Below, piece by piece: positions 17,646 to 49,408 of a stretch of 64,000 nucleotides of DNA. A program made the translations under genes and the position numbers. The DNA comes from Aerococcus urinaeequi. Its GTDB lineage: Bacteria; Bacillota; Bacilli; Lactobacillales; Aerococcaceae. The stretch spans positions 1,426,001-1,490,000 of the forward strand of contig NZ_CP014162.1 of NCBI RefSeq assembly GCF_001543205.1. The letters run 5' to 3'. Within the stretch, counting starts at the first letter, position 1, and each line of letters opens with the position of its first letter. The notes under the pieces were generated by a model. That model saw nothing but the letters and a program-made list of their open reading frames with translations, made no database searches and was not told where the DNA came from.

Positions 17646-17738
17646 TTAAAGTCAGGATTAGTCAAGTCGTATTTCTTTCTAGTTCAAGATGCACCGGCTA
17701 TAATAGTAGGGAGCATAAGAATAGAGAGGATGTTTTTT

Positions 17739-18743
17739 GTGGAATTAGGCGTGCACGATTTAGTGACGATAAATAAAGGGGAATCGGCTGAGGGTGCGGT
17801 TGAACGTACCATGCGATTTGTCCAAGAGATTGAGAAAATGAATTATAACCGGTATTGGTTTGCGGAACATCATAATATGCCAAGTTTGGCGTCGGTTTCA
17901 CCGGAGATGTTGGTGGCTTATGCGGCGGCTAAAACGGACCGCATTCATTTGGGTACGGGCGGTACTATGATTATGCATTATTCACCACTGAAGATTGCAG
18001 AAAACTTTAAGTTGCTGACGGCTTTAGCACCAGGACGGATTGATATTGGGCTAGGACGGGCACCGGGTTCAGGACCTGATGAGATTAAGGCACTAGCTGA
18101 AGGGCGGCCACAAACCTTTACAGACATGTATGATAAAATCCAAGTCATTTTAGATTATTTGGCGGATAAACAAGCACCTGATTTTTATGGTAAGGTCCGG
18201 GCCATGCCACAAAACCTCAAGCACCTGACTGAACCTTGGATGCTAGGGTCTTCAGGTCAATCAGCCATGGTGACGGCACAAATGGGCTTGGGTTATGCCT
18301 TTGCTAAATTCTTTGGGATTGAAACGGATCCGGACGTTTTTAAATTGTACCGGGACCGGTTTGAGCCGAGTGCATTTTTCCAAAAACCCAAAGTCATGGT
18401 GTCTTATATGATCATTGTGGGCGAAACAGATGAGGAAGCAGATTATTTAGCTAAGCCCATTGAATTGATGCAAATGGGGATTCGAACTGGTCAACTCTTG
18501 CCGAATATGAGTCCTGAAGAAGCCAAAGACTATAGTTTAGGAGCAGGCGCACAAGCTATATTGGATGATTATCTAGCTAAGCGATTTATTATTAAGGGAT
18601 CAAAAGAAACGGTGAAAGCTATTTTAGATGATGAAATTGAAAGTCTAGGTATCGATGAAATCTTAGTTTACGCACCAATTTTTGATGAAGACAAGCGGCT
18701 ACAATCATACCGTTATTTAGCGGAGATGTTTGATAAAATTTAA
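17739..18743 (+). CDS. LLM class flavin-dependent oxidoreductase
   Basis: Luciferase-like monooxygenase of the bacterial TIM-barrel family, 334 residues, using FMN. The family marks RYWFAEHHNMP and GRIDIGLGRAPGSG are present, as is the C-terminal helix ending in LAEMFDKI. I chose GTG at 17739 because AGAGAGG lies nine bases upstream; the ATG at 17730 overlaps that site and is less likely. The substrate is unknown; relatives are annotated only as MsnO8-like or alkanal monooxygenase-like. A strong terminator follows. Confidence 0.88.
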   Translation: MELGVHDLVTINKGESAEGAVERTMRFVQEIEKMNYNRYWFAEHHNMPSLASVSPEMLVAYAAAKTDRIHLGTGGTMIMHYSPLKIAENFKLLTALAPGRIDIGLGRAPGSGPDEIKALAEGRPQTFTDMYDKIQVILDYLADKQAPDFYGKVRAMPQNLKHLTEPWMLGSSGQSAMVTAQMGLGYAFAKFFGIETDPDVFKLYRDRFEPSAFFQKPKVMVSYMIIVGETDEEADYLAKPIELMQMGIRTGQLLPNMSPEEAKDYSLGAGAQAILDDYLAKRFIIKGSKETVKAILDDEIESLGIDEILVYAPIFDEDKRLQSYRYLAEMFDKI

Positions 18744-19161: not shown

Positions 19162-19452
19162 AGACATTACCGAAGACGGGATAAGTAAATAGGCATCAAT
19201 TTAAGAGAGGTTTCGTTTGGTGAAAGAAACTATTGATAAGCATTGAAGATGGTCCTTGAGGTTGAAGTGATTCGAGTGACAATTCGTCATAAGATGAACT
19301 CGTGTGGCGCCGTTATCCGCTAGCCCTATTTTATATTTTTAATATGATGCGGGGATAAGGGAAAGAAGTTCTTTCTGAATTAAGGTGGTACCACGTGAAA
19401 TACGTCCTTAGTCGAGATAGCTAGTTTAGCTGTTTGGACTAAGGACTTTTTT
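19162..19452 (+). promoter_or_regulatory. T-box riboswitch, AUG specifier (methionine)
   Basis: Shows the Stem I marks AGTA (near 19183) and AGAGAGG...GGTG (19204-19222), the specifier codon ATG at 19249-19251 in GAAGATGG, and the T-box proper AAGGTGGTACCACG at 19382-19395. The terminator arms GTCCTTAGTC 19404-19413 and GACTAAGGAC 19437-19446 end in six T; the first arm also serves the antiterminator. The AUG specifier and the MetQ-like gene downstream agree on tRNA-Met. Confidence 0.92.
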
Positions 19453-19485
19453 ATTGAAAAAATAGGAAAATGAAAAGGGGAAATA

Positions 19486-20325
19486 ATGATGAAAAAATTG
19501 GTTAAATTAATTGGATTTACTTTAGGTGCTTCATTGCTTTTAGCTGCATGTGGTAGTGGGGAAGATACCACCGTAAAAGTTGGCCTTGTAGGTGATGATA
19601 CAACAGTTTGGGATAGCGTCGCTGAACGAGCTAAAGAAGAATACGATATAGATATTGAGTTGGTTAAATTTAATGACTATAATACACCCAATGACGCATT
19701 AGCAGACGGTTCAGTTGATTTGAATTCATTTCAAACAATCATCTTCATGAATAACTATGAGGAAGCTTCTGGGAATGATTTCACTCCAATCGGTAATACA
19801 ATCATTACACCTCTAGGGATTTATTCTGAAAAACATGAATCAATTGAAGGAATTGGTAAAGGACAATCAGTGGCCATTCCAAATGATGTAACGAATGGTG
19901 GTCGTTCTTTAAACTTATTACAAGAGGCTGGCTTTATCACACTTGATGAAGAAGCGTCTGCATCATTTACACCAACTGTTGATGATATTACAGAGAATCC
20001 GTATAATTTAGATATTCAAGAAGTTGATGCAGCACAAACTGCCCGTTCAGTTAACGATGTTGACTTCTCAGTGATTAATGGTGGTTATGCAGTGGACGCA
20101 GGTTACTATCCTCAAGAGGATGCCTTATTCTTAGAGCCAAATTCTGAATCAGCTCAACAATATATTAATGTAATTGCTGCTAGAACAGATGAAGCTGATA
20201 GTGAAACATTTAAACAAATTGTAGAAATATACCAAACAGAAGAAACGGCAACTTTAATTGACGAGGTATATCACGGTGGTCAAGTACCTGCATGGGATGA
20301 CTACGGTTTTGCACCAGTTGAATAA
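19486..20325 (+). CDS. MetQ/NlpA-family substrate-binding lipoprotein (orphan)
   Basis: 279 residues with a lipoprotein signal peptide and lipobox LLLAAC (Cys about residue 22). The mature part follows the MetQ/NlpA fold, with VKVGLVGDD near the start, LNSFQTI, and VAIPNDVTNGGRSL, in which the family binds methionine or a derivative. No permease or ATPase gene is next to it, so it must share a transporter made elsewhere, possibly MetN-MetP at 40-41.5 kb. A methionine-type T-box controls it, which independently supports a methionine-related ligand. A bidirectional terminator separates it from the convergent DAHP synthase gene. Confidence 0.9.
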   Translation: MMKKLVKLIGFTLGASLLLAACGSGEDTTVKVGLVGDDTTVWDSVAERAKEEYDIDIELVKFNDYNTPNDALADGSVDLNSFQTIIFMNNYEEASGNDFTPIGNTIITPLGIYSEKHESIEGIGKGQSVAIPNDVTNGGRSLNLLQEAGFITLDEEASASFTPTVDDITENPYNLDIQEVDAAQTARSVNDVDFSVINGGYAVDAGYYPQEDALFLEPNSESAQQYINVIAARTDEADSETFKQIVEIYQTEETATLIDEVYHGGQVPAWDDYGFAPVE

Positions 20326-30481: not shown

Positions 30482-30772
30482 CATAATGTAATATATTTTT
30501 AATTTAAAAAAGCTTTGAAGAGAAGAGTAACTGAATTATTTTCTGATGCAGAGAACCCTTGGATGGTGAAAGAGGGACTGAAAATATAAGTGAAGATGAG
30601 CTCTGAGCAACCAAGCGGTTAACGCCTCTTGGTCGGTCGCAACCGTTATATTGCCGGGTTCTATTTGGAACCCTGGAGGTGCTATGTTCATAGCATAAAT
30701 TTGGGTGGTAACACGAAAAGCATTTTCGTCCCTTCATTGTACGGATGACGTATGGTGGAGGGGCTTTTTTTT
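30482..30772 (+). promoter_or_regulatory. T-box riboswitch, AUG specifier (methionine), before aminotransferase
   Basis: AGTA near 30525 and GGTG near 30564 mark Stem I. The putative specifier ATG is at 30596-30598 in GAAGATGAGC. The T-box TGGGTGGTAACACG is at 30702-30715. The terminator arms at about 30728-30743 and 30749-30764 pair over 16 bases with several G-U pairs and run into eight T. The block ATGAGCTCTGAGC is shared with the third T-box at 43157, which supports the same specificity. Confidence 0.88.
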
Positions 30773-30829
30773 CAATCAGCGTAAATATAAGGACAAAAGC
30801 TAGGAAAGATTCGGAAAAGGAGTATTTCA

Positions 30830-32032
30830 ATGACAAACAATTTTGCGAAACGAACTATCGGACTTCAGACGTCTCCCTTAAGAGAGAACGCCAAAAAAGC
30901 AGGGACAGATCCCAACACAATTTCTTTCTCGTTTGGTTATCCATCAAAAGATGCCTACCCAATAGACACATTGAGACAGATATCTGATAATCTTTATGAT
31001 AATGAAGAGCCAGATTCTTATTTACAATATGGTCAAACGGAAGGAGTCCCAGAACTAAGAGAAGCCTTAAAAGAAAGATTAGCGAAAAAAATCCAGTTAG
31101 AAACAGACGAAGATTTAATCATCACTTCCGGTGCTACCCAAGGGATTGCACTTTCGGTCAAGTTATTTTGTAATGAAGGGGATATAGTTTTATGTGAGGC
31201 GCAAACCTTTCACGGAGCAGTGACTTCTATCAAATCAAACGGCGCTATACCAGAAGGAATTCCGAGAACAACAAGCTCTAATATCGATTTTGATTATTTA
31301 GAAAAAAGACTTAGTGAAGATGTGGATAAACGGATTAAATTGCTGTACTTAATTCCGACCTTCCAAAATCCTTTAGGCACAAGTCTTACTTTAGAAGAGC
31401 GAAAGACCATCTATGAATTAGCTAAAAAATATGATGTCGTTATCATAGAAGACGATCCATACGGCGAATTACAGTATACAGGCGAAGTGATCCCGCGCAT
31501 TAAGTCGCTTGATGAGGATGGTCGCGTAATCTATGTGGGTTCTTTTTCAAAAATCCTCGCACCTAGTACGCGTTTAGGTTTTATGATTGCTTCAAGTGAC
31601 ATTCTTGAAAAAGTGATCGTCTTAAAACAAGTGGCAGACTCCCATACCAACAACTATTGGCAACGAGTCTTACTGGGCTTTATCAAAGAATACGACTTTG
31701 AAGGCCATGTGGCTTTTTTGAAAGACTATTACGGTCAGAAATGCCAACTTATGGTCGACAAGTTAAATGAAATGCCATCAGAATATATTGATTTTACGGT
31801 ACCAACAGGTGGTTATTTTATCAATTGTCAGCTTAAAGAAGATGTGGATATTGAGGCCTTCTACCAGTATTTGGCGGACCGTCATGTGGTGGTGATTCAC
31901 GGTAATGTGATGAGCGTAGACCATGTTGGCTTCGAAGATAATTTTCGGTTGAATTTCACAAGACCGTCCACTGAGGATATTGAAAAAGGGATTGAAGTCA
32001 TCAAAGAAGCTCTGATAGTAGCAAAAAAATAA
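30830..32032 (+). CDS. PLP-dependent aminotransferase (class I/II, MocR/AAT-I type)
   Basis: 400 residues, fold-type I aminotransferase. The PLP-binding lysine is Lys241 in SFSKILAPSTRLG; the cofactor contacts TSGATQGI and EDDPYGEL are also present. No N-terminal HTH is fused, so this is an enzyme and not a MocR regulator. The methionine-type T-box upstream suggests a role in methionine or branched/aromatic amino acid transamination, for example recycling of 2-oxo-4-methylthiobutyrate; that is inference. Start follows AAAAGGAG. It is inserted between the BglG gene and its probable target operon. Confidence 0.9.
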   Translation: MTNNFAKRTIGLQTSPLRENAKKAGTDPNTISFSFGYPSKDAYPIDTLRQISDNLYDNEEPDSYLQYGQTEGVPELREALKERLAKKIQLETDEDLIITSGATQGIALSVKLFCNEGDIVLCEAQTFHGAVTSIKSNGAIPEGIPRTTSSNIDFDYLEKRLSEDVDKRIKLLYLIPTFQNPLGTSLTLEERKTIYELAKKYDVVIIEDDPYGELQYTGEVIPRIKSLDEDGRVIYVGSFSKILAPSTRLGFMIASSDILEKVIVLKQVADSHTNNYWQRVLLGFIKEYDFEGHVAFLKDYYGQKCQLMVDKLNEMPSEYIDFTVPTGGYFINCQLKEDVDIEAFYQYLADRHVVVIHGNVMSVDHVGFEDNFRLNFTRPSTEDIEKGIEVIKEALIVAKK

Positions 32033-40033: not shown

Positions 40034-40780
40034 ATGATTGAATTTAAGCAAGTAGCGAAAGAATTTATGAATAGTGGTAACCGCATACAAGCGCTCGACC
40101 AAGTGACACTAACCATTCAAGATCAAGAAATATTTGGTTTGGTTGGCGAGAGTGGTGCGGGTAAGTCAACTTTGCTACGATTCATTAATGCTTTAGAAAG
40201 ACCCACTTCGGGGCAGGTAGTTGTAGACGATGTCTCGGTGAATGAATTATCTGCTAAAGAACTACGGACCTTTCGAAAAGATATCAGCATGGTCTTTCAA
40301 CAATTCAATCTTCTCAATAACAAAACAGTGGCTGAGAATGTGGCTTTACCCTTGAGTCTACATAAATATGATAATCCCTTAACGGTAGATGAAGTGCTAG
40401 GGTTTGTGGGTTTGGCAGATAAGGGTAACCATTATCCAAGTCAATTGTCAGGTGGGCAGAAGCAACGAGTTGGTATTGCTCGAGCTTTAATAACACGTCC
40501 TAAATTCTTATTAGCTGACGAGCCTACATCGGCTTTAGATACGCGAACTACGGGTGAAATTGTTAAGGTTTTAAAGGCAGCTTATGATGCTTATCCTATG
40601 ACCATGATTGTGGTGACACATGAGTTAGAAGTGATTAAGGCATTGTGTCAAAGAGCAGCTATATTAGAAAATGGACAAGTCAGTCAAGTGCTAGCAGTTC
40701 AATCAGATATACAAGCTGTTTCTGACAATAGCCAATCTTACGCTCAACAGGTCTTGGAGGTGCTAGCAGGTCATGAATAA
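40034..40780 (+). CDS. metN: Methionine ABC transporter ATPase, short form
   Basis: ABC ATPase of 248 residues. Walker A GESGAGKST at 38-46, signature [15 protein letters not shown], Walker B and D-loop [11 protein letters not shown]. The following permease and MetQ lipoprotein identify it as MetN. Classical MetN is near 340 residues and ends in a NIL domain that binds methionine and shuts the transporter; here the ATPase core is followed by only a short tail, so there is no room for the NIL domain. It overlaps the permease gene by eight bases, indicating coupling. Confidence 0.9.
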   Translation: MIEFKQVAKEFMNSGNRIQALDQVTLTIQDQEIFGLVGESGAGKSTLLRFINALERPTSGQVVVDDVSVNELSAKELRTFRKDISMVFQQFNLLNNKTVAENVALPLSLHKYDNPLTVDEVLGFVGLADKGNHYPSQLSGGQKQRVGIARALITRPKFLLADEPTSALDTRTTGEIVKVLKAAYDAYPMTMIVVTHELEVIKALCQRAAILENGQVSQVLAVQSDIQAVSDNSQSYAQQVLEVLAGHE

Positions 40781-41456
40781 CTTACAAGTTTATTGGGAAC
40801 GGTTGCTTGATTTTATGCCTGATATCATTGAAAGTCTTGGCGAGACAGGTATTATGATGGGATTCGCTATGATAGCGGCGATTATTTTAGGTTTGCCTTT
40901 AGGTACCTTTTTATTTTTAACTAATGAGGGTAATCCACGAGCAAATAAAGTTGTCTATCAGATTTTGTCCTTCATCGTTAATATTATCCGGTCATTTCCC
41001 TTCTTACTTTTGGTGGTATCTATGCAACCATTAATTCGAGCGACTTATGGTCGTGCGACAGGGGACCCAGTAGCTGCATCATTTCCGATGATGGTGATTG
41101 CCATCGCGCTCTATGCCCGATTTGTTGAGCAGTCTTTAATGGATGTAGACCGGGGCGTCTTGGAAACAGCGGATGCTTTAGGGGCTAATACTTGGCAATT
41201 GGTAACCAAATTCTTATTCGTGGAAGCCAAGTCATCCTTGATTATTGGCTATACAACGGCTTTTGTGTCTTTCATTTCCTACTCAACGATTATGGGGGTT
41301 GTCGGCGGAGGGGGTATAGGTGACTTCGCCATTCGCTATGGCTACCAGCGTTATGAAACCGACATGATGTACACGGCTATCGTTTTGATTATTGTGATCG
41401 TACAAGTTTGTCAGTGGTTAGGACTTAAACTAGCTAAGAAAGTCGACCACCGTTAA
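40773..41456 (+). CDS. metP: Methionine ABC transporter permease
   Basis: 227 residues with about five membrane helices and the EAA loop ETADALGANTWQLVTKFL that contacts the ATPase. The MetI/MetP family has this size. Overlaps metN by eight bases. Confidence 0.92.
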   Translation: MNNLQVYWERLLDFMPDIIESLGETGIMMGFAMIAAIILGLPLGTFLFLTNEGNPRANKVVYQILSFIVNIIRSFPFLLLVVSMQPLIRATYGRATGDPVAASFPMMVIAIALYARFVEQSLMDVDRGVLETADALGANTWQLVTKFLFVEAKSSLIIGYTTAFVSFISYSTIMGVVGGGGIGDFAIRYGYQRYETDMMYTAIVLIIVIVQVCQWLGLKLAKKVDHR

Positions 41457-41567
41457 GTTAGTGGTTGTTGAGGCACCATTCATTGGAAAATAGTTTTATT
41501 TTCCTTAAGTTAGCGCCAGCTTAAAATATGGTAATCTTTTTTACAAAAAAATTTGGAGGTAAGGTTT

Positions 41568-42419
41568 ATGAAGAAAGGTTTATTGTTTACAGGGGTATTT
41601 TCAGCAGGTTTGTTGCTTGCGGCATGTGGGAACGGGAGTGAAAGCGCTGAGTCAACGGCGACTGAATCAGCAGCTTCAAGTGAAGATACAGTAATCAAAG
41701 TGGCGTCTCATACGACACCAATGACTGATATCGTGGAATTAGCTGCTGAAGTGGTGGAAGAACCCTACACAATTGAATTGGTAGAAGTGTCCGATAATAT
41801 TCAATACAACGAAGCGGTTTTAAATGATGAAGCGGATGCATCTTTTGCCCAACATGAACCATTTATGGAAGTTTTTAATGAAGAACGTAACGGTGACTTA
41901 GTAGCTATTCAACCGATTTACAATGCTGTCGTTGGTTTCTATGCACCAGCATATGAAAGTATTGAGGATATTGAAGATGGCGCAGAAGTGGCTATTCCAA
42001 GTGATATGACCAATGAAGCGCGTGCTTTACATATTTTAGACGCTCAAGGTTTGATTGACGTACCGGATGAAACTTTTGTAACAGTTGATGATATTACGGA
42101 AAATGACAAAAACCTAAACTTTACCCATGTCGACTTGTTGAATTTAAATGCTTCGTATCAAGATGGTGTGGACTTAGTCTTTAACTACCCAACTTATATT
42201 TCAGAAATTGGTTTAACACCAGAAGAGGCGTTATTCCTTGAAGAAGACGATTCTAACCGTTTCGCCTTACAAATCGTAACTCGTGAAGGCAATGCAGATT
42301 TAGAAAAAATACAAGCATTGAAAGCAGCCTTTACCTCACAAGAAGTCTATGACTATTTAGAAGAACTAGCTGCAAGTGGTCACTTAGAACCAGCCTTCGA
42401 AAATCCTTCAGAACAATAA
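41568..42419 (+). CDS. metQ: Methionine-binding lipoprotein MetQ
   Basis: 283 residues. Signal peptide with lipobox LLLAAC, then a Ser/Glu/Ala-rich linker and the NlpA/MetQ fold (VKVASHTTPM, VAIPSDMTNEARAL). The ATG at 41568 is used because TTGGAGG lies just upstream; the in-frame TTG at 41553 is part of that site. It completes metNPQ after a 111-base gap. Confidence 0.92.
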   Translation: MKKGLLFTGVFSAGLLLAACGNGSESAESTATESAASSEDTVIKVASHTTPMTDIVELAAEVVEEPYTIELVEVSDNIQYNEAVLNDEADASFAQHEPFMEVFNEERNGDLVAIQPIYNAVVGFYAPAYESIEDIEDGAEVAIPSDMTNEARALHILDAQGLIDVPDETFVTVDDITENDKNLNFTHVDLLNLNASYQDGVDLVFNYPTYISEIGLTPEEALFLEEDDSNRFALQIVTREGNADLEKIQALKAAFTSQEVYDYLEELAASGHLEPAFENPSEQ

Positions 42420-43069: not shown

Positions 43070-43350
43070 CCAATTGCTTTGATGAGTAGAGTAATTATGC
43101 AGGTAATCCACAGCGAGTCTGAATTTGGTGAAATCAGATGTTTACCGGTAATGAAAATGAGCTCTGAGCATCTAGTCAGTGAAAGCTGGTTAGACGGGTG
43201 GGACCGTTATTTCTTTCAGTATGTAAGGTATTTACTGGATAAGAGATTGCTCGCGAGGGCAATTTGAATAAGGGTGGCACCGCGATTGTTAACCAATCGC
43301 CCCTTCCTAATAGACAAGGTTGTTTATTAGGGAGGGGTTTTTATTTTTCA
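43070..43350 (+). promoter_or_regulatory. T-box riboswitch, AUG specifier (methionine), before Tcy-like operon
   Basis: Stem I marks: AGTA at 43083-43086 and GGTG near 43127. The specifier ATG is at 43157-43159 in GAAAATGAGC. The T-box AGGGTGGCACCGCG is at 43271-43284. Terminator arms 43300-43312 and 43325-43337 (CCCCTTCCTAATA type) are followed by a T-rich tail. A promoter must lie upstream, but I could not choose one with confidence. Confidence 0.92.
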
Positions 43351-43408
43351 AAAAATGTCTAGACGTATGAAATCAGTGAAAGCAATCACCAAAGAAAGAG
43401 GTAAGAAT

Positions 43409-43975
43409 ATGACAAAAGTAACTTTAATTGTAGGCGCAAATTCATTATCTTCACGACTGAATGGTTTGGTGGCCTATGCCCAGCAGGTGTTATTCGAATA
43501 TAAGATTCAAACGCAGGTGATTCAGGTCCATATGTTACCAGCTGAAGCTTTGATGACGGCGGACTATACGGATAAGACGATTCAAGCGGTCAACCAACAG
43601 GTATTGAATTCAGATGGGGTTTTGGTATTTACGCCAATCTTTCAAGGAAGCTACTCAGGGATTTTAAAGGCATATCTTGATGTATTGCCGCCAAAGGCGC
43701 TGCAGGACAAGGTGGTTTATGGCTTGGGATTAGGTGGGTCGAAACACCACTTGTTGGCCTTACAATATGCTTTGGAGCCTGTCTTGAAGGAACTGGGTAC
43801 AGAAGAATTGTTACAGTCAACCTTTGCAACGCAAGACCAAGTAGTGAAAGATGGTAGAGATTTTATTATCGAAGACAGTGTAACCAATCGAATAGATGAA
43901 CAACTTTATAGATTTACCAGCCGTATCGGCCATGAGGTTATTAAGGAGGAAGCAAGATGGGAAAAGATCGTATAA
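43409..43975 (+). CDS. NADPH-dependent FMN reductase family protein (SsuE-like)
   Basis: 188-residue flavodoxin-like protein. The FMN-phosphate loop GANSLSSRLNG, and the TPIFQGSYSGILKAYLDVLP and YGLGLGGSKHHLLAL segments fit the SsuE/FMN reductase family that supplies reduced flavin to sulfonate or thioether monooxygenases. No such monooxygenase is next to it, so its partner is elsewhere or another electron acceptor is used. The ATG at 43409 follows AGAGGTAAG; the ATG at 43355 sits against the T-box terminator and has no such site. First gene of the operon. Confidence 0.85.
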   Translation: MTKVTLIVGANSLSSRLNGLVAYAQQVLFEYKIQTQVIQVHMLPAEALMTADYTDKTIQAVNQQVLNSDGVLVFTPIFQGSYSGILKAYLDVLPPKALQDKVVYGLGLGGSKHHLLALQYALEPVLKELGTEELLQSTFATQDQVVKDGRDFIIEDSVTNRIDEQLYRFTSRIGHEVIKEEARWEKIV

Positions 43976-44517
43976 GAATTGCTACTAAAGAGGACGCACC
44001 AGCATATTTAGCCCTTATTCAAGAGTCATTCCAAGAGGTGAAGGATTTAGGTATTGATTGGCCGTCAACAAACGCTACGTTAGAATCGGTCACTGAAAAT
44101 ATTGAAACGGGGATTGCTTTAGTCTTAGAGCGGGATGACCAGTTAATTTCAACCATCACGATTCGACAACCCTGGGAAAATAACAGCCCCATTTCACATT
44201 ATCCTTTCTTGTGGTGGTTTGCGACTGCGAACGAATTTAAGGGACAAGGGATTGGGAAGAAATTCCTGAAACAAGTGGAAGAGGAATTCTTGGTGAAAAC
44301 CTTAAAAGCACCAGCCTATGTCTTAGGAACTTCTGGTAAGAGACATCCATGGTTACTGGATATGTATTTGAGAAATGGCTACCAAGTCTTAGGCACAAGA
44401 GAAGATTCGAATGATATCGGGGTTTCCTTGTATAAGGTCTTGATTCCCGAACGGTTTGATGAAAGCGTCCTTCGGGTTGAAGCACCTTATTATGAGTACC
44501 AAGATTTGACCATTTAA
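43957..44517 (+). CDS. GNAT-family N-acetyltransferase
   Basis: 186 residues. The acetyl-CoA site is FKGQGIGKKFLKQVEEEF with the usual R/QxxGxG/A signature. It overlaps the FMN reductase gene by 19 bases and has AAGGAGG at the right distance. In Bacillus the tcyJKLMN operon also carries an acetyltransferase (YtmI/SnaA-type) that modifies S-alkyl cysteine derivatives; the same role here is inferred from context. Confidence 0.85.
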   Translation: MGKDRIRIATKEDAPAYLALIQESFQEVKDLGIDWPSTNATLESVTENIETGIALVLERDDQLISTITIRQPWENNSPISHYPFLWWFATANEFKGQGIGKKFLKQVEEEFLVKTLKAPAYVLGTSGKRHPWLLDMYLRNGYQVLGTREDSNDIGVSLYKVLIPERFDESVLRVEAPYYEYQDLTI

Positions 44518-44600
44518 TGATTTTAAATTTTAGTGAATGAAATGATAGTGATGGCTGAATAGCCGACTTAACAGTTCCAACAAATAGGAGGAGAAAACTC

Positions 44601-45380
44601 ATGTCAGAATTTTTTAAATGGGAATATGTTGTATCATTTTTCCCGAAAATATTATCCGCACTCCCTACGACACTAGCCATTGTGGCAGTTGCCACTGCAG
44701 TCGGAATGGTACTCGGCTTGGCCATTGCTTTTGTGAGAATTGAAAAAGTGCCAGTCTTGTCACAAATTAGTCAGGTGTTCGTGTCTTTCATCAGAGGTAC
44801 GCCAATTCTAGTGCAATTGTTCTTAATTTATTACGGGCTACCGATTGTCTTTACGGCTTTAGCCAATATTGAAAAGATTGACTATGTTTACATTACATAC
44901 GGTTTGAGTACGGCGGCCTTTTTCTCAGAAATCTTTCGGTCAGCGATTTCAAGTGTCGCAACCGACCAGAAGGAAGCGGCAGCCTCTGTTGGCTTGACCA
45001 AACTGCAAACCTACCGCCGAATCATTTTGCCACAAGCAGTACGGATCGCTATTCCTGCTACAGGAACCATGATTGTAAGCCTATTGCAAGATACATCACT
45101 GGCCTTCTCACTAGGGGTTATCGATGTGATCGGGAAGGTTCGGGCCCTAGCAGCCTTAACGTATCGGTCGCTTGAAGGGTATTTCGTGGCAGCCATCATC
45201 TTCATCGTCTTATCTATCGTCTTGGAGCGGGTATTTGCTTGGTTAACCAAACGATTCCAATTCCAATCAAAAGCGAAAACAGAAGTGGCACAAGCTGGAC
45301 TTGATCCAGAGATTTTAATTAAAAATGATGAACTATTTAATACATATACACTTAAAAGTGGAAAAGGGGAGACCTACTAA
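44601..45380 (+). CDS. Amino acid ABC permease (TcyL/TcyM-like), first
   Basis: 259 residues, about five membrane helices, with the HisMQ-family conserved RGTPILVQLF and the EAA loop EAAASVGLTKLQTYRRIILPQAVRIAIP. It belongs to the polar amino acid permease family; as two permeases are encoded in the operon, the channel is probably a heterodimer. GGAGGAG precedes the ATG. The stop overlaps the next start by one base. Confidence 0.92.
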   Translation: MSEFFKWEYVVSFFPKILSALPTTLAIVAVATAVGMVLGLAIAFVRIEKVPVLSQISQVFVSFIRGTPILVQLFLIYYGLPIVFTALANIEKIDYVYITYGLSTAAFFSEIFRSAISSVATDQKEAAASVGLTKLQTYRRIILPQAVRIAIPATGTMIVSLLQDTSLAFSLGVIDVIGKVRALAALTYRSLEGYFVAAIIFIVLSIVLERVFAWLTKRFQFQSKAKTEVAQAGLDPEILIKNDELFNTYTLKSGKGETY

Positions 45381-46213
45381 TGAAGAAGAAACCAACTTTT
45401 TTACGATGGGGATTATTAACTTTTGCAGCAACAGCAGTCCTTGCAGCTTGCGGGTCAGCTGAAGCAACGGATGAAGACGCAGCAGCATCCTCTAATCCAG
45501 ATGCAGAGACAGTTGTCGTTGGGACAGGGAATGCCTACCAACCATTTGTTTACTTAGATGAAAATGGCGAATTAACAGGATATGATGTGGCTGTCCTTGA
45601 AGCAATTGACGAAAAATTAGACGACTACAATTTTGAATATGAATCTTCTGATTTCAAGAATATCTTGACCTCATTGTCAGCTGGGAAGATTGATTTAGCG
45701 GCCCACCAATATGAATACAATGATGAACGAGCGGAGAAATACCTGTACGGGGAGGTGGGCTATACCGACTATACCCTATATATTGTCAATATTGCAGGTG
45801 ACAAGCAATATGCAACTTTAGATGACCTACAAGGGAAGAAAGTATTCGCTTCACCAGGATCTAACGTGGCTTACTTATTGGAACAATATAACAGTGAACA
45901 TGAAAATGCAGACGAACAAATCTCCATTATTTATAACGAAGGTGCCAATGAAATCTTTGTTTCAGGCTTACAAAACGGGACCGCTGATGCAGGGATTTTA
46001 ACTAAATACGATACCAACAAATACAATGAACAATTCGACGCCAACTTAGAAATTGCCTCTGAACCGATTTCGGTATCAAAAACCTATTTCTTGTATGACA
46101 AGGTTGACGAAGAGTTGAAAGAGGCTGTTGACGGTGCCTTACAAGAGTTGATTGATGACGGGACTTTGGCAGAATTATCGGTTGAATACTTAGGTGACGA
46201 TTACACCAAATAG
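45380..46213 (+). CDS. Amino acid-binding lipoprotein (TcyJ/K-like), copy 1
   Basis: 277 residues. Lipobox VLAAC at about residue 25, linker with Ala/Asp/Ser, then SBP_bac_3 fold (YLDENGELTGYDVAVLEAID, AAHQYEYNDERAEKYLYGE). The sequence resembles Bacillus TcyJ/TcyK, which bind cystine and related sulfur amino acids. It is first of three tandem paralogues. Compared with copy 2 over a 90-residue block starting NPDAET only nine positions differ, pointing to a recent duplication. Confidence 0.92.
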   Translation: MKKKPTFLRWGLLTFAATAVLAACGSAEATDEDAAASSNPDAETVVVGTGNAYQPFVYLDENGELTGYDVAVLEAIDEKLDDYNFEYESSDFKNILTSLSAGKIDLAAHQYEYNDERAEKYLYGEVGYTDYTLYIVNIAGDKQYATLDDLQGKKVFASPGSNVAYLLEQYNSEHENADEQISIIYNEGANEIFVSGLQNGTADAGILTKYDTNKYNEQFDANLEIASEPISVSKTYFLYDKVDEELKEAVDGALQELIDDGTLAELSVEYLGDDYTK

Positions 46214-46238
46214 AAGAGGAAAAGGTGGACAGCACAGT

Positions 46239-47078
46239 ATGCAGAAAATTTTTGGCAATAAAATTAAAAAACGGTTTGTGTTAACGGGTATTGCCTCAGC
46301 CTTATTACTTGGGGCTTGCGGGAATGCGGATGCTTCAGAAGACGACCAAGAATCGGCGGCCAATCCGGATGCAGAAACGATTGTTGTTGGGACTGGGAAT
46401 GCCTACCAACCATTTGTTTACTTAGATGAAAATGGCGAATTAGAAGGTTATGACGTGGCCGTTTTGAAGGCCGTCGATGAAAAATTAGACCAATATAACT
46501 TTGAATACGAGTCGTCAGACTTCAAGAATATCTTGACTTCCCTACAAGCTGGGAAAGTTGATTTAGCGGCCCACCAATACCAATACAATGATGAACGAGC
46601 GGAAAAATATCTCTTTGGTGAAGTTGGCTATAACAATATCACCTTACATATTATTTCGATTGAAGGTGAGGGCGAATACAACAGCTTAGACGACCTACAA
46701 GGGAAAAATGTGATCGCCTCACCAGGAGCTAATGAAGCCCATGTTGTTGAAGAATACAATAGCGAACACGGGGAAGATGAACAAATCAACATCGTCTATA
46801 ACGAAGGTGGTAGTGAAATCTTTATCTCCAGCCTACAAAACGGTACGGCTGATGCAGGAATCCTAAAAGAATATGACGGTAACAAATACAACGAACAATT
46901 CGATGCCAACTTGGCCATCTCAGAAGAACCAGTTAGTGGTTCAAAAGCCAATTTCTTATATAGAAAAGGCGAGGAAGAATTACAGCAAGCCGTTGATGGC
47001 GCTGTCCAAGAGTTGATTGATGAAGGAACTTTAGCAGAATTATCCATCGAATATTTAGGCGATGATTATACACAATAA
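46239..47078 (+). CDS. Amino acid-binding lipoprotein (TcyJ/K-like), copy 2
   Basis: 279 residues. Lipobox LLLGAC. It is almost identical in its central part to copy 1, with variation concentrated near the signal peptide, in the HIISIEGEGEYNSLD segment, and around the ligand-binding GANEAHVVEEYNS region. The start at ATG 46239 follows AAAGGTGG; the longer in-frame start at 46194 would overlap copy 1. It probably loads the same permease pair with a somewhat different ligand or affinity. Confidence 0.9.
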   Translation: MQKIFGNKIKKRFVLTGIASALLLGACGNADASEDDQESAANPDAETIVVGTGNAYQPFVYLDENGELEGYDVAVLKAVDEKLDQYNFEYESSDFKNILTSLQAGKVDLAAHQYQYNDERAEKYLFGEVGYNNITLHIISIEGEGEYNSLDDLQGKNVIASPGANEAHVVEEYNSEHGEDEQINIVYNEGGSEIFISSLQNGTADAGILKEYDGNKYNEQFDANLAISEEPVSGSKANFLYRKGEEELQQAVDGAVQELIDEGTLAELSIEYLGDDYTQ

Positions 47079-47105
47079 AAGTGAGAAAGTGGGATTTAGA
47101 ATATT

Positions 47106-47936
47106 ATGAAGAAAATGATACAAGCAAGATTCAAAAAACAGTTTATATTTACGGGTATTGCCTCAGCCTTTTTACTAGCAGCTTGCGGATCAGCTGAAGC
47201 AACTGATGAAGAAGCCACAGCTAATCCAGATGCAGAAACCATTATTGTGGGAACAGGAAATGCTTACCAACCCTTTGTTTACCTAGATGAAAATGAAGAC
47301 TTACAAGGTTATGATATTGAAGTCTTGCGGGCAGTGGACGAAAAGTTAGACCAATACGACTTTGAATATGAATCTATGGACTTCAAAAATATCCTAACCT
47401 CACTTTCAGCCGACAAGGTCCAACTTGCAGCCCACAACTACGCTTATAACGACGAGCGCGGGGCCAAATACCTATACGGGGAAGAAGCCTACAACAATTA
47501 CGCCCACCATATCGCAGCCGATGAATCTACCGGTCAAGTTTACCAATCTTTAGATGACCTTAAAGGCAAAAAGGTATTTGCATCCCCAGCTAGCGAGGTA
47601 GCCAATATTTTAGAGACCTATAACGCTGAAAATGACGATGCTATAGAAATTGTCTACAGTGAAGTGAATGGTGAATTATTGGTCTCTGGTCTACAAAATG
47701 GAACAGCAGACGCAGCCATTTTGACAAAATTTGACGTTGATAAATACAACGAGCAATTCGATATCAACCTACAAGCCTCAGATGAAGCCCTAAAAACTGC
47801 TGGTATCTACTACGTCTTCCAACAAGGTGATGAAGAATTACAAACAGCCGTAGACGGGGCTATCAAAGAATTACGAGAAGAAGGGACCTTATCAGATCTT
47901 TCAATCGAAATCCTTGGCGCTGACTACACCGAATAA
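47106..47936 (+). CDS. Amino acid-binding lipoprotein (TcyJ/K-like), copy 3
   Basis: 276 residues. Lipobox LLAAC. The most diverged of the three; it shares NPDAETIIVGTGNAYQPFVY and the DERGAKYLYGE block but differs in the binding lobe (LAAHNYAYNDERG rather than LAAHQYEYNDERA). The Gln to Asn change in this block lies near the expected ligand site, so a different ligand is plausible. 18 bases before the second permease. Confidence 0.9.
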   Translation: MKKMIQARFKKQFIFTGIASAFLLAACGSAEATDEEATANPDAETIIVGTGNAYQPFVYLDENEDLQGYDIEVLRAVDEKLDQYDFEYESMDFKNILTSLSADKVQLAAHNYAYNDERGAKYLYGEEAYNNYAHHIAADESTGQVYQSLDDLKGKKVFASPASEVANILETYNAENDDAIEIVYSEVNGELLVSGLQNGTADAAILTKFDVDKYNEQFDINLQASDEALKTAGIYYVFQQGDEELQTAVDGAIKELREEGTLSDLSIEILGADYTE

Positions 47937-47954
47937 AGAAAGGAGGGCGCCACA

Positions 47955-48668
47955 ATGCCCATCGATTTTACAGCAATAGTAGAAGCCTTTAAAGCGGCCG
48001 TTCCATTTATCCCAGTCACCTTACGCTTGGCCTTCATTCCCTTATTCATCGGGATGATCTTTGGCCTACTCATCGCACTGGCACGTTTCTTCCAAGTGCC
48101 TGTCTTAAGCAAATTTCTCGCGGGTCTAATTACCATTGGAAAAGGGGTACCAGTTGTTCTAAGTTTAATGGTTGCTTACCTACTTTTCTCAGACTTGTTC
48201 GATCAAGTAGCCACTAGCTTAAGCTTGCCGATACGTTTTTCAGATATCAACCGTGAATACATTGGCATTTTTGTCCTTAGTTTCACGGCAACCATTTCCC
48301 TTTCGGAGATTTTTCGTGGTGCCTTATCTGCCATTCCAAAAGACCAATGGGATGCAGCGGCATCCATTGGTTTGACCCAATTTCAAACCATTGCCCGGGT
48401 CATTTTCCCACAAATGATCCCCATCGCATTACCCATGATTTGTAGTCAATTAATCGTCTTAATCAAGGCATCTTCATTGGTATCCTTGGTCTCAGTGGTC
48501 GATGTCTTGAACGGGGCTTTAATTACAGCGACAACAAGCTATACCTTCCTAGAATCTTATATCGCAGCAGCCGTCATTTATTGGGGGCTGTCGATTACAG
48601 TGGAACAAGCATCGCAATTATTTGAACGCAACTACACCAGAAAATTTGTGAAAGGAAGTGCCCTATGA
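47955..48668 (+). CDS. Amino acid ABC permease (TcyL/TcyM-like), second
   Basis: 237 residues, about five membrane helices, HisMQ family, EAA loop [29 protein letters not shown]. Acts with the first permease and the ATPase. Its stop codon overlaps the ATPase start by four bases (ATGA). AAAGGAGG precedes the ATG. Confidence 0.92.
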
Positions 48669-49408
48669 TACAAGTTGAAAACATCCACAAAAAATTTGAT
48701 CAAAATGAAATCCTTAAAGGGATCGATTTAACCATTAACCAAGGTGAGGTGGTCGTAATTATTGGCCCATCTGGTTCAGGGAAGACCACCTTCCTTCGCT
48801 GCCTAAACTTTTTAGAGCGTGCGGATAAAGGACATCTGAAAATTGGTGACCAACAAGTAGACTTTGAAAAAGTTTCTAAGAAAGAAATTCTAGATATTCG
48901 TAAGAAAACGGCTATGGTTTTCCAACAATATGCACTATTTTCAAACCGGACGGCTTTAGAAAATGTCATTGAAGGTTTAGTGATTGCTCGTAAAGTGCCT
49001 AAGAAAGAAGCGACAGAAAAAGGGCGTGACCTCTTAGCTAAGGTTGGCTTGGAAGGGAAAGAGGACCACTATCCACATGAACTTTCAGGTGGGCAACAAC
49101 AACGGGTGGGGATAGCGCGTGCTTTAGCCCTGAACCCAGAAGTTATTCTATTTGATGAACCAACATCGGCCTTAGACCCAGAATTAGTAGGGGAAACCCT
49201 GGAAGTCATTAAAGATGTAGCCCAAAGCGGGTCTACTTTAGTCATTGTGACCCATGAAATGCAATTTGCTTATGAAGTTGCAGATAGAGTCATCTTTATG
49301 GAAAATGGCGTCATTGTTGAACAAGGGACACCTGAAGAAGTATTTGATAATACTCAAGAAGAAAGAACGCAAAACTTCCTGAAAAGAACTGCTGTATTTG
49401 CACGTTAG
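48665..49408 (+). CDS. Amino acid ABC transporter ATPase (TcyN-like)
   Basis: 247 residues. Walker [10 protein letters not shown] at 34-42, signature [15 protein letters not shown], Walker [13 protein letters not shown]. Polar amino acid class, closest in context to TcyN. It is the only ATPase of the operon and energises the whole transporter. Confidence 0.94.

Follow-up and report, generated by a model that had tools for sequence, protein, structure and literature searches.

A T-box-led operon with three tandem TcyK-family receptors as the probable uptake part of a divided salvage system for S-alkylcysteines and cystine in Aerococcus urinaeequi

We analysed a stretch of 64,000 nucleotides of Aerococcus urinaeequi (contig NZ_CP014162.1, positions 1,426,001 to 1,490,000), referred to here as the window, in a genome surveyed as a single contig of 2.01 Mb. 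Between window positions 43070 and 49408, a T-box leader is followed by eight genes on the same strand, among them three family-3 receptors in tandem. This operon is probably the uptake half of a split salvage system for S-alkylcysteines and cystine of the Bacillus snaA-tcyJKLMN-cmoOIJ type, working by the mechanism proposed below. The gene functions are well supported by homology; the reactions, the ligands and the regulatory response are inferred. A first-pass annotation of the window had placed an AUG T-box and an eight-gene operon with three tandem receptors at these positions, and matches to Rfam RF00230 and to Pfam show its coordinates to be correct.

Pfam assigns the eight genes, all on the + strand, as flavin mononucleotide (FMN) reductase, GNAT, permease, three SBP_bac_3 proteins, permease and ATPase. 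The seven gene junctions comprise three overlaps, three gaps of 18-27 nucleotides and one gap of 83 nucleotides between the GNAT and permease 1 genes. The NAD(P)H-dependent FMN reductase (43409..43975; PF03358, 2.5e-23) has a longest open reading frame (ORF) of 43355-43975; the start at 43409, likelier than 43355, is our reading of the printed sequence. The protein is 69% identical to its counterpart in L031, an undivided cluster from Enterococcus sp. CU12B, and it likely supplies FMNH2 to monooxygenases of the CmoO/CmoJ type. The GNAT acetyltransferase (43957..44517; PF00583, 3.7e-07) is a candidate SnaA-like S-alkylcysteine N-acetyltransferase; it is 80% identical to its counterparts in L031 and L199, both undivided tcy-cmo clusters, and a Protein Data Bank (PDB) search returned no match for it at E 0.001 or better. 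Two permeases of the polar amino acid type (PF00528; permease 1 at 44601..45380, permease 2 at 47955..48668) flank the receptors SBP1 (45380..46213), SBP2 (46239..47078) and SBP3 (47106..47936), each of which carries a lipobox-like Cys. A TcyN-like ATPase (48665..49408) completes the operon. The top NCBIfam models are the cystine permease PRK15100 for permease 1 (152.5 bits, under the cut-off of 300) and TcyN for the ATPase (347.9 bits, under the cut-off of 406). The permeases and ATPase belong to the expected families, with 72-82% identity to the L031 cluster, and the ATPase is 82-94% identical to the ATPases of clusters L028, L029 and L031. This gene content supports the earlier proposal that three receptors feed one transporter.

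All three receptors fall in a single TcyK clade of 20 rows (support 100/99) in a 36-row tree, apart from E. coli TcyJ, GlnH, ArtJ, ArtI, HisJ and ArgT and from ten other family-3 receptors of the genome. Three receptor trees were built, with 36, 31 and 29 rows; they did not include L037, L131 (the ORF already present as L130) or L035, which in position and identity nearly duplicates L034. In the PDB ranking, the YtmK/TcyK structures 4gvo and 2o1m were the top two for all three receptors, with 4gvo ahead for SBP2 and 2o1m for SBP3, and a large gap separated them from the third entry. GshT of streptococci, which from the titles of 4c0r and 4eq9 we take to feed the cystine importer TcyBC, differs in being a glutathione receptor and has lower sequence scores than TcyK. 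Ranking and tree both uphold the Tcy kinship claimed in the first-pass annotation; the receptors did not group with glutamine or arginine receptors, and an assignment as Gln, Arg or His receptors was rejected on the tree. An assembly duplication was also ruled out, since SBP1 shares 70% identity with SBP2 and 61% with SBP3, and the three are distinct genes.

The number of receptors varies, with three in the window operon, two in the operons of G013, G014 and Aerococcus agrisoli and one in Aerococcus sp. 1KP-2016; the latter two species provide the nearest named loci. In the 31-row tree SBP3 groups with G013_b, G014_b, A. agrisoli_b, 1KP-2016, CU12B and G077_b, and a pair resembling SBP1 and SBP3 is present in G077 too. 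SBP2, for which the G013 and G014 operons contain no equivalent, branches as the sister of the SBP1 group (support 99/95 in the 31-row tree, 91/84 in the 36-row tree) and differs from that group by ~30%, whereas SBP1 orthologues differ by ~5%. Because of this unequal divergence, SBP2 is probably older than the split from G013/G014 and was lost there, or else it may have evolved fast. The ratio of nonsynonymous to synonymous divergence (dN/dS) was 0.201/1.56 for SBP1-SBP2, and dS was saturated for SBP1-SBP3; a value well below 1 where dS is computable suggests that the receptor copies have been kept.

The putative pocket residues differ among the three receptors. We number pocket positions by the LAO receptor; PDB titles list LAO D11, Y14, F52, S69, S70, S72, R77, Q122 and D161 as mutated, do not state the roles of these residues and do not cover positions 117, 120 and 121. 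At LAO position 72, SBP1 has E, SBP2 has Q and SBP3 has A. SBP1 has TcyK-like pocket residues (E112), and SBP3 has an A-type pocket with N, A and E at positions 70, 72 and 121. SBP2 shows a third set, Q72, A120 and K161, that was seen in none of the other 30 rows, and its E122 is common to G081_b. All seven two-receptor loci examined pair one receptor with E at position 72, as in TcyK, with one that has A. A single clade of all ten A-type receptors was rejected in the 29-row tree (approximately unbiased test, p-AU 7e-43) and was not rejected without G081_a (p 0.065), for a test group picked after the tree and the residue table had been seen. The tests thus support a minimum of two origins for the A-type residue and no higher number. 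The residue table suggests that the three receptors may bind different ligands. A structure predicted for SBP1 only had a mean pLDDT of 77.8 and a pTM of 0.72.

The second operon lies outside the window, ~65 kb from the window operon. Its leader (L012, G000:C1:1401414-1401646) is the closest to the window leader among the other 26 leaders of the genome, at 83% identity, followed by L014 at 76%, with a median of 65%. Behind it (G000:C1:1401736-1404312; L082:7737-10313) are genes for an MsnO8-type luciferase-like monooxygenase (LLM), a glutaredoxin-like protein and an NtaA/DmoA-type monooxygenase, in the order cmoO-cmoI-cmoJ of B. subtilis. The last of these matches YtnJ, which we take to be CmoJ, at E 1.6e-203. 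The LLM exceeds its family cut-off and the glutaredoxin-like protein is below cut-offs; both are placed by gene order. The presence of CmoO-, glutaredoxin- and CmoJ-like proteins behind a near-copy leader greatly strengthens the earlier suggestion of S-modified cysteines, which are the likeliest substrates, although the enzymes that would cleave the C-S bond sit in this operon rather than in the window operon.

Beside the cmo operon, and also outside the window, the L014 module (L082:10727-14707; G000:C1:1404726-1408706) encodes an ATPase, a permease, a receptor and a second NtaA/CmoJ-type monooxygenase (50% identical). Leaders of the L014 type occur in five genomes; their specifier is placed as UGC, and the N base of the T-box bulge is an A, which matches U73 of tRNA-Cys. 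This is probably a second, Cys-controlled module. Sister leaders in the same genomes read UGC (N matching tRNA-Cys) and AUG, at 73-83% identity. The leader tree was weakly supported (1 of 15 inner branches starred) and gave no order of Cys and Met types; a weak leader match in G009 (71% over 99 bases; L087) could not be placed in the alignment and was left out of the leader counts. In the Cys T-box module of G013 (L120:5037-7266), the monooxygenase was matched in full and the receptor to 64%, with no match for the ATPase and permease.

The two halves are linked in relatives of the order. In cluster L031 of Enterococcus sp. CU12B, a LysR-type gene in divergent orientation adjoins a single row of genes for reductase, GNAT, permease, receptor, permease, ATPase and proteins like CmoO, glutaredoxin and CmoJ. 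CmoJ relatives at E 1e-150 or better are present in 28 of 395 order genomes, and clusters were fetched from five of these 28 besides Aerococcus. L199, L200 and L201 (G077, G092 and G295) have the L031 gene row with two receptors and a divergent LysR-type gene; L202 (G081) contains these parts as well, but its two receptors precede the permeases, and here too a divergent LysR-type gene is present. No Rfam T-box match at gathering score was found in L031 or in L199 to L202. In the fifth relative (L203, G150), the genes of a related cluster are arranged differently, and an S-adenosylmethionine (SAM) riboswitch lies upstream (79.1 bits). Proteins of the L031 and G077 clusters are 63-85% identical to those of the window operon. 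Bacillus-type loci (L030, L032, L033, L034 and L036) contain receptor, permeases, ATPase and GNAT, and three of the five also have the reductase, a YtmO-like protein and glutaredoxin; Rfam gave no T-box match in these five loci, L035 having been left out of the rerun.

Within the family, CmoJ is found at 98% or more in 5 of 76 genomes, the sixth match being 36% identical. The receptor profile exceeds 440 bits in four of the 76, all among the five CmoJ-positive genomes, and reaches 224-240 bits in 11 g19 genomes. The three of these 11 from which stretches were fetched have the order permease-receptor-permease-ATPase, with no enzyme matches in those stretches. The orthologous operon of G013, a close relative, is probably impaired: a transposase-like ORF of 439 amino acids, presumably of the DDE type, lies between permease 1 and the first receptor (L118:5470-6789), and permease 1 has a changed end.

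The window leader (43070..43307, + strand) matches RF00230 over its full length (108.1 bits, gathering cut-off 93, E 6.3e-23). We read the specifier loop GAAAAUGA at 43153-43160, with AUG at 43157-43159, and the T-box bulge UGGC at 43275-43278, where the N base is the C at 43278. An intrinsic terminator that would compete with the antiterminator follows at 43299..43338 (+ strand), with an 18-pair stem and then a T run. The segment 43250-43345 folds at -39.8 kcal/mol (z -5.15), and none of 200 shuffles was equally stable. Only this terminator part stands out, as the whole leader folded alone gave a z of -1.34 with 22 of 200 shuffles as stable. A promoter scan was uninformative (12 matches versus a shuffle mean of 18.1).

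The motif GAARAUGR is present in 7 of the 27 leaders of the genome, namely the window leader, L012, L002, L005, L006, L008 and L011. L005, L006, L008 and L011 stand before MetY-type, S-methylmethionine-permease-like, MetA and MetQ genes, and L002 stands before an aminotransferase; MetY and MetA pass the model cut-off, while the S-methylmethionine-permease-like protein and MetQ are below it. The register before Met-type genes supports AUG as the specifier of the window leader. Methionine control of the window operon is thus likely, and the leader probably works like a Met T-box. In S. aureus, exchange of an AUG specifier for UGC is reported to have left the bound tRNA unchanged (PMC3771891). 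The specifier alone is therefore no proof of the tRNA.

We propose the following working of the two operons. At low methionine, uncharged tRNA-Met would pair with the leader AUG, the antiterminator would form and the operon would be transcribed, while the twin 83%-identical leader ~65 kb away would simultaneously switch on the CmoO-like protein, glutaredoxin and CmoJ. The three TcyK-family receptors would share one importer of two permeases and one ATPase, which would take up cystine as well as cysteines that are S-modified or in mixed disulfides. The GNAT would N-acetylate the S-modified cysteine and the FMN reductase would provide reduced flavin; CmoO may then form the sulfoxide and CmoJ may break the C-S bond. 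Glutaredoxin would reduce the resulting sulfenic acid and a deacetylase would free cysteine, which could feed methionine synthesis. A bolder version, which we put forward only tentatively, holds that one translocator serves three pocket chemistries and three classes of cysteine derivative, and that a leader family re-tuned between Cys and Met, in either direction, links both salvage halves to methionine status.

Several observations weigh against the assignment as a methionine-controlled uptake half. The TcyK row lies on a long branch in the 36-row tree (program warning), and long-branch warnings arose in all three trees, TcyK included. Receptors, permeases, ATPase and reductase are all under the equivalog cut-offs of their top NCBIfam models. 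No N-acetylcysteine deacetylase is linked; one unlinked M20 amidohydrolase passes its family cut-off (286.7 versus 153.75 bits), between ribF-like and hrcA-like genes. The cmo half is 97-99.5% identical to that of G005 (1KP-2016) and the uptake half 72-92%. The two halves thus differ in part of their history, and these identities suggest that Aerococcus species exchanged the cmo region recently. G006 (93% complete) has the cmo half and no receptor match at E 1e-40. With respect to the leader, the N base is C where U is expected for tRNA-Met, as all tRNAs with a CAU anticodon in the genome end in A73 (discriminator bases are our readings of the printed sequence). U does occupy this position in each of the remaining five GAARAUGR leaders. 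L012 and every one of the nine aligned Aerococcus leaders of these two types share the C of the window leader, but the A. agrisoli orthologue has A. Mismatches of the N base also occur in leaders of genes that, from the printed sequence, we take to be proS-, hisS- and thrS-like; the N-base rule is thus loose in this genome and a match is not an absolute requirement. The methionine control suggested earlier is backed by the specifier register, but the N base does not match tRNA-Met.

The operon could instead encode a plain high-affinity importer of cystine and cysteine, with the reductase and GNAT as passengers or in another role and with the leader likeness as a sign of shared sulfur control. 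For Listeria TcyK, PMC9239247 reports binding of cystine, with a KD of about 13 uM, and of cysteine, but none of Met, and the three g19 genomes examined have importer genes with no enzyme matches in the fetched stretches. This account is nonetheless unlikely, as the Aerococcus operons share their order of reductase and GNAT with the CU12B, G077, G092, G295 and G081 clusters, which also contain CmoO-glutaredoxin-CmoJ. Two-component LLM monooxygenases require reduced FMN, which also counts against it. A separate question, compatible with the salvage function, is whether the receptors are redundant dosage copies that bind the same ligand. Their membership in one clade at 61-70% identity and the frequent shifts between one, two and three copies within the genus are consistent with dosage; the putative pocket positions, however, differ among all three receptors, the E/A contrast at LAO position 72 recurs in all seven two-receptor loci, and dN/dS is well below 1 where it could be computed. 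We regard dosage as possible and not as the favoured explanation.

Two further alternatives concern the leader and the substrate. Read as AAU, the specifier would direct the leader to tRNA-Asn, and the N base C does pair with G73 of tRNA-Asn. The loop GAAAAUGA fits the GAARAUGR register found before MetA, MetY and MetQ, however, and L002, alike in loop and flanks, carries G in place of the would-be first A of AAU. The pairing argument is itself weakened by the A at the N position in the A. agrisoli orthologue and by the mismatched proS-, hisS- and thrS-like leaders, and control by asparagine makes no evident metabolic sense here; we consider this reading very improbable. Still less probable is sulfonate assimilation by an FMN reductase with a taurine or alkanesulfonate importer. 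The reductase is nearest to the SsuE model and scores 154.3 bits, below the equivalog cut-off of 164.05, and CmoJ/YtnJ, the cleaving enzyme of the twin operon, reaches 54.3 of the 518.2 bits required by the alkanesulfonate monooxygenase model; the receptors themselves belong to the TcyK clade, whose members take amino acids. A sulfonate system was rejected on these scores and on the CmoJ match, and the sulfonates named in the first-pass annotation are not supported, as no family match over a sulfonate cut-off was found in either operon.

The importer, the enzymes and the salvage chemistry are known from other systems. PMC10863075 describes a route for S-alkylcysteine of acetylation, sulfoxide formation by CmoO, cleavage by CmoJ to a sulfenic acid, reduction and deacetylation, and three redundant N-acetylcysteine deacetylases are reported for B. 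subtilis in PMC12757645. The name snaA-tcyJKLMN-cmoOIJ and a wider ligand range for the Bacillus operon come from PMC11487621. Aerococcus shares with this operon a GNAT-family gene, TcyK-family receptors, two permeases, one ATPase and, elsewhere in the genome, the cmo genes in the same order. Its split into two operons ~65 kb apart changes the arrangement but leaves the parts as they are. T-box leaders are present and no LysR gene adjoins the window operon, the FMN reductase comes first, there are three receptors rather than two, and no deacetylase is linked. The Listeria monocytogenes ytmI operon has an FMN reductase, a TcyK-type receptor (4gvo, among the nearest solved structures to the window receptors), two permeases and an ATPase, as well as YtmO; according to PMC9239247, it differs in having one receptor, YtlI (LysR type) and CymR/CodY control and a single operon. 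The clusters of CU12B (L031), G077, G092 and G295 follow the window in gene order from FMN reductase to ATPase, whereas they have a divergent LysR gene, no T-box match, cmo genes directly downstream and either two receptors or, in L031, one. In Lactobacillus paracasei, a Met T-box controls yckJ-yckK-metC, which encodes a polar amino acid importer of the cystine type (PMC6004538); this unit has one receptor, no acetyltransferase or FMN reductase and another downstream enzyme. It provides a precedent for the control proposed for the window operon.

As far as we have seen, three features are new: the division of the system between two operons that have twin T-box leaders, the family of Met and Cys leaders, and the third kind of receptor. 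In a search of open-licence papers only, none joined a T-box with tcyK, ytmK, cmoJ, ytnJ or tcyL, so that an earlier mention elsewhere is possible, and for T-box riboswitches of Aerococcus one paper, on histidine, turned up. The findings tie S-alkylcysteine salvage, under CymR/LysR control in Bacillus, to probable methionine-type RNA control in Aerococcus, and they place related gene sets behind differing control elements: a LysR gene, a SAM riboswitch or a T-box. The paralogous receptors, with contrasting pocket residues, offer a set for studying receptor diversification on one shared translocator. Closely related Cys-like and Met-like leaders in one genome permit a direct test of T-box amino acid change, which matters because the specifier swap in S. 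aureus did not switch the tRNA.

Other units with a possible bearing on sulfur metabolism or T-box control were noted. Directly upstream of the operon, at 40034-42419, is a methionine-type importer (ATPase, permease and MetQ-like protein) with no T-box match at gathering score. At 30506-32032 an AUG-type T-box (108.8 bits) precedes a class I/II aminotransferase, a candidate for a methionine link, whose nearest NCBIfam model is the MocR-like PdxR, below cut-off. A T-box with GAAGAUGG (93.5 bits) precedes a MetQ-type receptor at 19164-20325, and an MsnO8-type LLM monooxygenase lies just upstream of this unit, at 17730-18743. Elsewhere in the genome, tandem T-box leaders (L004 and L015; G000:C1:1791634-1792122) both have CGC-like specifiers and are followed by genes that, from their sequence, we take to be N-acetylglutamate kinase-like and ornithine carbamoyltransferase-like.

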